Notes under the pieces: model-generated
What the model was told of the DNA's origin: nothing
The model's input: the letters and a program-made list of their open reading frames with translations, nothing else
Databases searched by the model: none
Source of the DNA: Desulfofustis sp.
GTDB lineage: Bacteria > Desulfobacterota > Desulfobulbia > Desulfobulbales > Desulfocapsaceae
Direction: 5' to 3'
DNA length: 55,339 nt
Assembly (NCBI GenBank): GCA_022340565.1
Contig: JAJDNR010000050.1
Location: 1 to 55,339 of the forward strand
Translations under genes and position numbers: made by a program
Shown here: piece by piece, positions 1 to 3,439 of the stretch
Numbering within the stretch: the stretch's first letter is position 1
How the letters are laid out: each line of letters starts with the position of its first letter

Positions 1-1482
1 GGTTCGCTCCGCCTGGGATGCGGTAACCTGGGCTTTCTCAATGTCCTCCTTGATCTTCCTGATGCGGCCGATGGTGTCGCGCTCCAGGGTCCACTGCGCT
101 TTCATGGCTTTGAGTTGGTCACCGAGATCGGCGAGGCGCCGCTGCACATCGGCCAGCCGCTCCTTGGAGGCCTTATCCTGCTCCTTCTTCAGCGCTTCCT
201 GCTCGATTTCGAGTTTAATGCGCTGCCGTTCCAACTCGTCGATCTGTGTCGGCATCGAATCGATCTCGATACGCAGCCGCGATGCGGCTTCGTCGATCAG
301 GTCGATGGCCTTGTCCGGCAGGAACCGATCAGTGATATAGCGGCTGGAGAGAACCACCGCAGCCACCGTTGCCGCATCCTGGATCCTGACGCCGTGGTGA
401 ATTTCATACTTCTCCTTGATTCCCCTTAAAATGGCGATGGAATCCTCTTCGCTGGGCTCCTGAACCAGTACCGGCTGGAAACGCCGCTCCAGGGCGCTGT
501 CCTTTTCAATGTATTTCCGGTATTCATCCAGCGTCGTGGCGCCCACGCAGTGCAGTTCGCCGCGGGCAAGCGCCGGCTTCAGCATGTTCGATGCGTCCAT
601 CGAGCCCTCGGCGGCTCCGGCTCCGACGAGCGTGTGGATCTCGTCGATGAAGAGGATGATTTCACCGCTGCGCTTCTCGATTTCTTTAAGCACCGCCTTG
701 AGCCGATCCTCGAATTCGCCGCGGTATTTGGCGCCGGCAACCAGTGAACCGAGATCAAGAGTTATTACCTGTTTGTCCTTCAGGGTGGCGGGAATGTCGC
801 CATTGACAATGCGCTGGGCCAGGCCCTCGACGATGGCTGTTTTTCCAACGCCGGGCTCGCCGATTAGAACCGGATTGTTTTTTGTGCGCCTCGACAGCAC
901 CTGGATGATCCGGCGGATTTCCTCATCCCTGCCGATTACCGGGTCGAGCTTGCCGCGTTTGGCGATATCGGTCAGGTTCTTTCCGTATTTTTCCAGGGCC
1001 TGATATTTCTCCTCGGGGTAAGGGTCGGTGACCCGCTGGTTTCCCCTGATCGTGCTGAGGGCCTGCAAAAAGTTCTTCTCGGAGACGCCGAGCTGGCTCA
1101 GTTTCGCGGCCAGGCTCGATTTGCCGTCCCGGAGGATCGCCAGGAAGATGTGTTCCTGACTGACATATTCGTCCTGCATCTGGGATGCCGTGGAGAATGA
1201 ATTATCGAGAATCCGTTTCAGGTCTTGCGAAATATAGATCTGCCGCGCGCCGGAACCGGAAACGGATGGCAGTGAGCTGATCTGTTCGTTGACCAGGGCA
1301 AGCACCCGCGAAGGGTCTACCCCCATTTTCTGCAGTGTCGGCACCACGACCCCATCGGGCTGCTCAAGAATTGCTTTAGCCAGATGTGCCGGGGTAATCT
1401 CCTGGTTTTCGTGAGTCTCGGCGATCTGCTGAGCTCCCTGGACAGCCTCCTGGGATTTCAGTGTAAATTTATCGAATTTCAT
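1..1482 (-). CDS. clpB: ATP-dependent disaggregase ClpB (N-terminal 494 residues, cut by window edge)
   Basis: ClpB is a Hsp100 AAA+ chaperone that pulls proteins out of aggregates together with DnaK/DnaJ/GrpE in the cytoplasm. Reading the minus strand from the ATG at 1482 gives an open frame that leaves the window at base 1. It opens [15 protein letters not shown], as in the double Clp_N domain (about 1-145), then NBD1 with Walker [10 protein letters not shown] near residue 210 and Walker [11 protein letters not shown] near 275. From about 400 the sequence becomes rich in E/K/Q/R, as in the ClpB coiled-coil middle domain, which ClpA lacks. A clear AAGGAGA ribosome site precedes the ATG. The second ATPase domain lies outside the window. 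Confidence 0.96.
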
Positions 1483-1679: not shown

Positions 1680-2015
1680 TCAGCCGCAGCTTCCAGAACC
1701 GCAGGATCCTGATGAACAGCCGCCGCCGCCAATCGGATTGGTCGAAGAAATACCGAAACCGGAACGCGGTCCTGCTTCTATATATTCGACATTGATCGAG
1801 CCGCAGGTTTCCAGCAGGCTGTCTTCGACAACAAATGTCAGTTCATTCTGATCGTATACCTTGTCGTTCTCTTTTGGCTCATCCAGAGCCAATCCCAGCG
1901 AAGGGCCGGCTCAGCCGCCCTGCATCAGTGCCACACGCAGGGCCGATTCAATATTGTTCTGGCTGAGGTACTCCTTGAGTTTGGTTACAGCCAGGTCAGT
2001 TACCGTAAGTGACAT
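1680..2015 (-). CDS. HesB/IscA-type Fe-S carrier selenoprotein (UGA = Sec35)
   Basis: An A-type Fe-S cluster carrier of 111 residues, read through an in-frame TGA at 1913-1911. Translation from the ATG at 2015 (AAGGAGG ribosome site just upstream) gives MSLTVTDLAVTKLKEYL..., then MQGG-U-AGPSLGLAL, matching the first cysteine region of IscA/HesB proteins with Sec in place of Cys. The frame continues through CGSINVEYIEAG to a Cys/Gly/Ser-rich end with three cysteines (C-x4-C-x4-C) instead of the usual C-G-C. HesB-like selenoproteins are a known bacterial family, so readthrough is much more likely than a broken gene. Conventional gene callers would start at the TTG at 1892 and lose the N-terminus. 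It has its own promoter and terminator. Confidence 0.88.
1874..1913 (-). promoter_or_regulatory. Bacterial SECIS element following the UGA codon
   Basis: Starting 18 nt after the UGA (1913-1911) the minus-strand RNA can form a 7-bp stem UUGGCUC / GAGCCAA (1892-1886 with 1880-1874) closed by the 5-nt loop UGGAU (1885-1881). The loop begins 25 nt after the UGA. Bacterial SECIS elements are short hairpins directly downstream of the UGA, with a guanine-bearing apical loop about 16-37 nt away that is bound by SelB. The fit is good, but the structure was judged by eye. Confidence 0.7.
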
Positions 2016-2350
2016 GCAGACCTCCTTGATGTTTTCGTTATGTCACGGGGGGTCTCCCCAGAATAGTGCATATGCACCACTCGCTCATACTTTGTCCCCA
2101 CATGATAAGCCTCACCAAAACAGAAGTCAATTGGTGAATTTCAACGAAAAATTAAATACACGGCAAGACGATTGCTTAGGTGACGATCTGTCTCGTCGAA
2201 CACGAAAACATAACATATTTCCGTTATGTGCAAGGAACTATAGCGTTTGAATCAATAGATTGTTACTTTTAGAGCTTTGTTTTAATGATTAGCAATGGCG
2301 GTCGGTAAGGGTGGTAAGGCTGTAACAGCGTATCGATTAGAGGTAAGCGG
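2016..2350. other. Divergent intergenic region between hesB-like gene and pfk
   Basis: 335 bp without a gene. It holds the selenoprotein promoter and its leader palindrome (both minus strand). On the plus side, a possible pfk promoter reads TTGTTA (2260-2265) - 15 bp - TTTAAT (2281-2286), which has a short spacer and is weak. The AT-rich stretch 2100-2290 contrasts with the surrounding coding DNA. No tRNA or repeat was seen. Confidence 0.5.
2102..2130 (-). promoter_or_regulatory. Promoter of the HesB-like selenoprotein gene
   Basis: Minus strand: TTGACT (2130-2125) - 17 bp - TATCAT (2107-2102), each 5/6 to consensus, with ideal spacing. The predicted start near 2095 gives a leader of about 80 nt. 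That leader contains the palindrome GTGCATATGCAC (2066-2077) and a GGGG-TCT-CCCC repeat (about 2049-2059), either of which could be an operator or an RNA hairpin. Confidence 0.55.
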
Positions 2351-3439
2351 ATGAAAAAGGTGGTGATTTCTACCGGTGGCGGCGATGCCCCGGGGCTCAA
2401 CGCGGTGATTTACGCGGTTGTGCACGCCTGTTATCGGCGCGGGTGGGAGGTGTACGGAAGCAGAAGCGGTTATTCCGGATTTCTCGATGTCGATGAGATG
2501 ATCAGACTGACCCCGCGGGATGTGCAGGAAATCTATGCGATCGGCGGCACGATCCTGGGTTCCACCAACAAAGGCAGTCCGTTTGCAAAACCGGTGGAGA
2601 ATCTCGCCGGGGAGATCCATTACGTCGACATGTCTGAAAAGATCATGAAAAACTATAAACGGATGGGTTTTGATTGCCACATCGCGATAGGCGGGGACGG
2701 CAGCCTGGAAATCGCCCACCGATTCGCCCAACTCGGGATGAACGTGATCGGGGTACCCAAAACCATCGATAATGACCTGATGGCCACCGATCGAACCTTC
2801 GGGTTCGATACCGCGGTGTCCACGGCGACCGAAGCGCTCGACAAGATACATTCTACCGCCAAATCCCACGATCGGGTTATGGTTGTTGAAGTGATGGGAA
2901 GAGATTCCGGCTGGATCGCGCTGTATTCAGGAATCTCTGGTGGAGCCGATGTGATTCTGATCCCGGAAATCCCCTTCGAATTGGAAATCGTCTGCGAGAA
3001 AATCGCCGACAACGAACTCAGGGACAAGCATTATGCGATCGTTGTGGTTGCCGAAGGAGCCGTCGCCAAAGGAGGCACGGTCTTCTCAAAAGGAGCCGGG
3101 GAACTCGGCAGACAGGAGGTGATCCTGGGTGGAATCGGGGAGTGGGTCGCTGCAGAGATCAAAAAATCCACCGACAAGGATACCCGTTCTCTCACTCTCG
3201 GCCATCTGCAGCGGGGCGGGTCGCCGACTACTTTCGATAGGCTGCTGGCGCTGAGATTCGGTGCAGCGGCGGTACGGCTCGTCGAGGAGGGGACCTTCGA
3301 CCATATGGTCGCCCTGGTCTCGTCACAGATGAAGGCAGTGCCGATTCAGGAGGCGATTAAAACCAGGAAGAAAGTCGATCTCCACAGCGATAAAATCCAG
3401 ACTGCTCGCGATATCGGCATCTGCTTTGGAGACGAATAA
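2351..3439 (+). CDS. pfkA: 6-phosphofructokinase
   Basis: Phosphorylates fructose-6-phosphate to fructose-1,6-bisphosphate in glycolysis. The 362-residue protein has the phosphate-binding STGGGDAPGLNA near the N-terminus, GGDGS (about residues 114-118), PKTIDNDL (about 137-144) and MGRDSGWIAL. In this family the residue after GGD and the residue before TIDND track the phosphoryl donor. Here the first is Gly (ATP type) and the second Lys (usual in PPi enzymes), a combination known from some ATP-dependent long-type and plant PFKs. ATP use is therefore more likely, but not certain. GAGGT lies 8 nt before the ATG. The glycosylase gene follows after 12 bp, so the two may be co-transcribed. Confidence 0.93.
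   Translation: MKKVVISTGGGDAPGLNAVIYAVVHACYRRGWEVYGSRSGYSGFLDVDEMIRLTPRDVQEIYAIGGTILGSTNKGSPFAKPVENLAGEIHYVDMSEKIMKNYKRMGFDCHIAIGGDGSLEIAHRFAQLGMNVIGVPKTIDNDLMATDRTFGFDTAVSTATEALDKIHSTAKSHDRVMVVEVMGRDSGWIALYSGISGGADVILIPEIPFELEIVCEKIADNELRDKHYAIVVVAEGAVAKGGTVFSKGAGELGRQEVILGGIGEWVAAEIKKSTDKDTRSLTLGHLQRGGSPTTFDRLLALRFGAAAVRLVEEGTFDHMVALVSSQMKAVPIQEAIKTRKKVDLHSDKIQTARDIGICFGDE

Follow-up and report, generated by a model that had tools for sequence, protein, structure and literature searches.

Positions 1680 to 2015 of the window (the whole stretch of 55,339 nucleotides that was analysed, a contig of Desulfofustis sp.) almost certainly encode, on the minus strand, a selenocysteine (Sec)-containing HesB-like selenoprotein that falls in the NF038090 branch of the A-type (IscA/SufA/ErpA) family; this high confidence applies to the gene as a Sec-encoded HesB-like selenoprotein and not to a carrier function. 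The host is a Desulfofustis-like sulphate reducer, and the best-matching named genomes are Desulfofustis sp. metagenome-assembled genomes (MAGs), D. glycolicus DSM 9705 and other Desulfobulbaceae/Desulfocapsaceae.

Gene structure and protein family

The gene, its flanking signals and its neighbours are as follows.

1680-2015, minus strand: gene for the HesB-like selenoprotein (111 residues, Sec as U35), ending in the stop codon 1682-1680
2015-2013, minus strand: start codon ATG
2021-2027, minus strand: Shine-Dalgarno sequence AAGGAGG, 5 nt spacing to the ATG
1911-1913, minus strand: Sec codon 35, an in-frame TGA within the motif GG-U-A-G-P, kept in 103 distinct homologous sequences
1874-1892, minus strand: bacterial SECIS hairpin (TTGGCTC 1892-1886, loop TGGAT 1885-1881, GAGCCAA 1880-1874)
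1683-1718, minus strand: cysteine-rich tail, C100-x4-C105-x4-C110
1620-1652, minus strand: intrinsic-terminator-like hairpin, 3' of the full-length open reading frame (ORF)
1-1482, minus strand: N-terminal portion of clpB, truncated where the window ends; identified by its sequence, conserved neighbour
2351-3439, plus strand: 6-phosphofructokinase-like gene (pfk); named from sequence alone, conserved divergent neighbour

The minus-strand frame from 2015 to 1683 comprises 111 codons with a sole internal TGA at codon 35, and is terminated by a second TGA at 1682-1680; the predicted protein of 111 residues reads MSLTVTDLAV...LMQGG-U-AGPSLGLALDEPK...GGGGCSSGSCGSGSCG. The coordinates given in the preliminary description were correct to the base, and the strong ribosome site that it placed at the gene start was found (AAGGAGG at 2027-2021, 5 nt from the ATG). 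As it had also anticipated, standard annotation leaves a fragment: translation with table 11 yields merely a 70-residue ORF 3' of the TGA, and plain gene callers truncate a clean, well-supported selenoprotein gene. The terminator-like site lies after the second stop (1682-1680), not after the TGA at codon 35.

The NCBIfam model NF038090 (IscA_HesB_Se) matches residues 3-102 with 139.8 bits (cut-off 85), while the sister model TIGR01911 (HesB_rel_seleno) gives 52.9 bits, below its cut-off of 66.35; the protein was therefore assigned to the NF038090 branch. The Pfam domain PF01521 (Fe-S_biosyn) is also recognized (33.5 bits; cut-off 26.3), and the A-type equivalog models score far under their cut-offs (IscA 37.8/150.6, SufA 36.4/136.2, ErpA 36.5/117). 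The UxGP motif with its in-frame UGA is present as U35-A-G-P, and U35 aligns with the first ligand position of A-type carriers, where the preliminary description had placed the TGA. Its identification of a Sec-containing HesB/IscA-like protein is upheld by the NF038090 score together with the conserved TGA and SECIS. An AlphaFold2 model, built from the window plus homologues on public contigs, has an overall pLDDT of 79.8, falling below 50 in the tail (residues 97-111). The best PDB matches of this model are E. coli IscA (1r94 and 1s98) and 1x0g (IscA with [2Fe-2S]), with a Foldseek match to IscA at E 1.7e-8, which supports an IscA fold for the predicted full-length protein. Two more A-type-like genes are found in the same genome, one canonical (GGC-A-G, CGC) and one degenerate, beside which the present gene is a specialised third.

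The SECIS hairpin and conservation across relatives

The hairpin begins 18 nt 3' of the TGA, with 25 nt from the UGA to the loop, and consists of a 7-bp stem and a 5-nt loop (UGGAU). Published limits for bacterial SECIS elements are a loop of 3-9 nt, a stem of 4-16 bp, a G in the first two loop positions, a distance of 16-37 nt from the UGA and a folding energy of -7.5 kcal/mol or lower (PMC13188914); the present hairpin lies within all of them (loop 5, stem 7, G at loop position 2, 25 nt, -10.2 kcal/mol). The 50 nt from the TGA fold with -17.9 kcal/mol, and an Rfam scan of the window gave zero matches. Since the folding-energy z-score is only -1.67, folding energy by itself was set aside as weak evidence and is not decisive; a test of silent sites was used instead, and it is conservation that decides for a SECIS.

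This test relied on 103 distinct TGA-containing sequences, drawn from the searched genomes and 80 named loci. Silent positions within the hairpin are frozen (Ala GCT, Leu CTG and Glu GAG, each in 103/103), and codon entropy is ~1.4-2.3 bits at most fourfold or sixfold (Ala, Leu) sites outside it. The 19-nt hairpin YTGGCTC-TGGAY-GAGCCAA shows hardly any variation and its loop UGGAY is found in every one of the 103, with a compensatory change from a G-C to a U-A pair in one sequence and a G-U wobble at another pair in six. Pairing is mostly lost in the few Cys-coded homologues. The hairpin as first described (7-bp stem, 5-nt G-bearing loop, 18 nt after the TGA) is thus confirmed, with the conservation across 103 sequences added to it. 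In the proposed mechanism, SelB carrying Sec-tRNA(Sec) would read the UGA of codon 35 as selenocysteine through this hairpin.

A search of 58 genomes (the present one included) with NF038090 gave matches in 58/58, above the cut-off in 56; as counted here, 54 genomes hold a match interrupted by a single TGA. The TGA stands at the same codon in all 103 distinct sequences, a pattern beyond what chance would give, and about a hundred sulphate reducers related to this one share the gene together with its hairpin and cysteine-rich tail. A sequencing or assembly error within a normal Cys gene, conceivable for a single metagenome-derived assembly, is already refuted by this conservation across many assemblies, and its probability is negligible. 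In comparison with three same-genus copies, dN is ~0.03 and dS >1 in the codons that follow the TGA, a constraint equal to that before it, which bears out the claim that the frame is conserved on both sides; judged from these substitution rates, the protein part after the TGA is under strong purifying selection.

The order ClpB - hesB - pfk - endonuclease III - large regulator is alike in the window and in D. glycolicus, and among homologous loci, several of which end at contig ends, pfk lies within 3 kb in 47/54 and clpB in 33/54. With this pfk-hesB-clpB context conserved and the hairpin near-fixed across the order, the cultured Desulfofustis glycolicus, which carries a close homologue, is a natural test organism. 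At L181:5992-6982, L212:5998-6783, L031 and L035, the HesB gene was observed in two tandem versions, one with TGA and one with TGC, which may represent a selenium-dependent isoform pair.

Selenocysteine decoding in the genome

Direct HMM searches of the contigs of this genome for selA, selB and selD gave no match. The assembly is a single, metagenome-derived one (3.32 Mb in 225 contigs, 94% complete), and the missing genes most probably reflect assembly gaps rather than losses, a conclusion drawn from a selC fragment at a contig end, a contig break on the side of selB, missing neighbour genes, UGA-containing formate dehydrogenase (fdh) genes and the sel genes of the same genus. The selC fragment, a tRNA-Sec match that fell below threshold on direct search (C204:1-76), holds 84 of 94 nt with the anticodon TCA, is cut by the contig end and is 98% identical to a same-genus gene. 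The gene order in the same-genus genome G002 is selB - MBL - mrp - ftsY, and ftsY of the present genome lies on a 3.4-kb contig (C80) that ends inside it on the selB-facing side. The same-genus copies of selA are found close to contig ends, no more than a few hundred bases away, and in G004 the end in question is a 16S rRNA gene. The selA neighbours pilT, LOG and TPR and the selD neighbour selU likewise had no match in this genome, so blocks rather than single genes are missing; a pirin match (C26), considered as a selD neighbour, was rejected as not syntenic. Same-genus genomes carry selA (3/4), selD with a TGA (4/4), selC (2/4) and a partial selB (1/4). The present genome encodes two formate dehydrogenase alpha genes with one in-frame TGA each (G000:C214:136-2130 and G000:C112:37425-38975), one of which holds the classical Sec site CARLUHSPTVAG.

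These data also bear on the reading that the lineage has lost Sec decoding, so that the gene would be a remnant in which the TGA has become a genuine stop. The absence of selA, selB and selD from the assembly would favour it, but selC is present up to a contig end, C80 breaks off on the side where mrp, the MBL gene and selB lie in G002, whole blocks are absent, constraint on the codons is equal before and after the TGA, and a UGA-containing fdhA is intact. Loss of Sec decoding was rejected on the selC fragment, the UGA fdhA and purifying selection, and is considered very improbable. The preliminary description had proposed a search for sel genes as a check and named their absence as grounds for refutation. 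At first sight this applies to selA, selB and selD, which are not in the assembly, but the selC fragment is present, and gaps most probably account for the rest. Had the lack of sel genes in this draft assembly been taken at face value, the selenoprotein would have been wrongly dismissed.

The 16S rRNA gene is a usual assembly break. At locus L108 (G004:C169, positions 1-2030) only a few hundred bases separate selA from it, and this proximity may explain why selA is found at contig ends, and is easily missed, in many draft genomes of the family. Two single-contig relatives (G009:C1 and G016:C1) contain selB, tRNA-Sec and a TGA-containing hesB without a selA match, which could be due to masked or missing sequence or to another Sec synthase.

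A further reading is that the TGA at codon 35 is read as cysteine, for instance by a selC*-type tRNA-Cys with a UCA anticodon. An additional tRNA-Sec-like gene of selC* type does occur in some relatives, and in a few cases its anticodon is UCA (PMC7609411). Against this, searches of this genome and its genus gave no selC* above threshold but did give a standard tRNA-Sec(UCA), the hairpin is of the standard bacterial SECIS type, and HesB in the selC* cassettes examined carries a Cys codon rather than TGA. Decoding as cysteine is ranked slightly below loss of Sec decoding, and selenocysteine remains the preferred reading of the codon.

The second tRNA-Sec-like genes of relatives were considered as a new recoding system and rejected as such, because they correspond to selC* tRNA-Cys/SelB* cassettes already described from deltaproteobacteria (PMC7609411, section 6). 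Seven of nine lie within ~5 kb of a Cys-coded HesB homologue (L093 on G021:C149, L094 on G029:C12, L095 on G030:C30, L096 on G044:C104, L098 on G008:C158, L099 on G036:C6 and L100 on G039:C61), and one of these seven is also beside a second SelB-like gene. ARAGORN assigned the anticodon GCA or UCA in 5/10 selC*-type loci tested. At L093:5971-6598 (G021), a tRNA-Sec-like gene with anticodon GCA directly precedes a HesB gene with TGC at the Sec position, which retains 6/7 SECIS pairs and the TGGAY loop; SelB-type decoding may continue to act on this Cys codon, or Cys may have replaced Sec recently.

Proposed function and comparison with known systems

The preliminary description regarded the C-x4-C-x4-C end as unusual and hinted at a different metal or cluster. 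The same spacing is exact in 78/103 Sec-form sequences, nearly all the rest having 3-5 tail cysteines, so the tail is a family trait and gives by itself no reason to propose a different metal or cluster. An alignment of 29 sequences shows no variation at U35 or at the final two cysteines of the tail, and has C71 and C100 in 26/29. In IscA, Cys35, Cys99 and Cys101 are the ligands or redox groups of Fe-S cluster or iron transfer. By analogy, the U35 selenolate and the cysteines of the flexible tail would probably act as ligands for, or a redox handle on, a transferred Fe-S cluster or iron, a proposal to which roughly even confidence is given; the ligand geometry is conjectural because pLDDT is below 50 across residues 97-111. 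It is considered unlikely that Sec and the C-x4-C-x4-C tail adapt the subfamily, in a role specific to anaerobic sulphur-cycling bacteria, to carrying a cargo different from the usual Fe-S cluster, such as a cluster with a selenolate ligand, another metal, or selenide/sulfide. A HesB-like mutant of Methanococcus maripaludis was reported, as an unpublished observation, to fix nitrogen still (PMC11097638).

In relatives, selC* cassettes carry a Cys-coded homologue of the present HesB gene; they differ from the present system in their decoding, and none was found in the present genome. The protein resembles IscA, SufA and ErpA in fold, in overall alignment and in the first ligand position aligned with U35, but differs from them by Sec in place of Cys, by a C-x4-C-x4-C tail in place of C-x-C, and by scores under their model cut-offs. 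The closest known system is the HesB-like selenoprotein family (NF038090; also TIGR01911), known as the preliminary description had said, catalogued in deltaproteobacteria since 2006 (PMC1794560) and included with the motif UxGP in a 2026 review (PMC13188914). The present protein shares with it the above-cut-off NF038090 score, U-x-G-P, the in-frame UGA, the SECIS and, as for many listed members, an anaerobic deltaproteobacterial host, and nothing of substance sets it apart other than a score below the TIGR01911 cut-off. The gene is real, and it is a further member of an already known family, the HesB-like selenoproteins.
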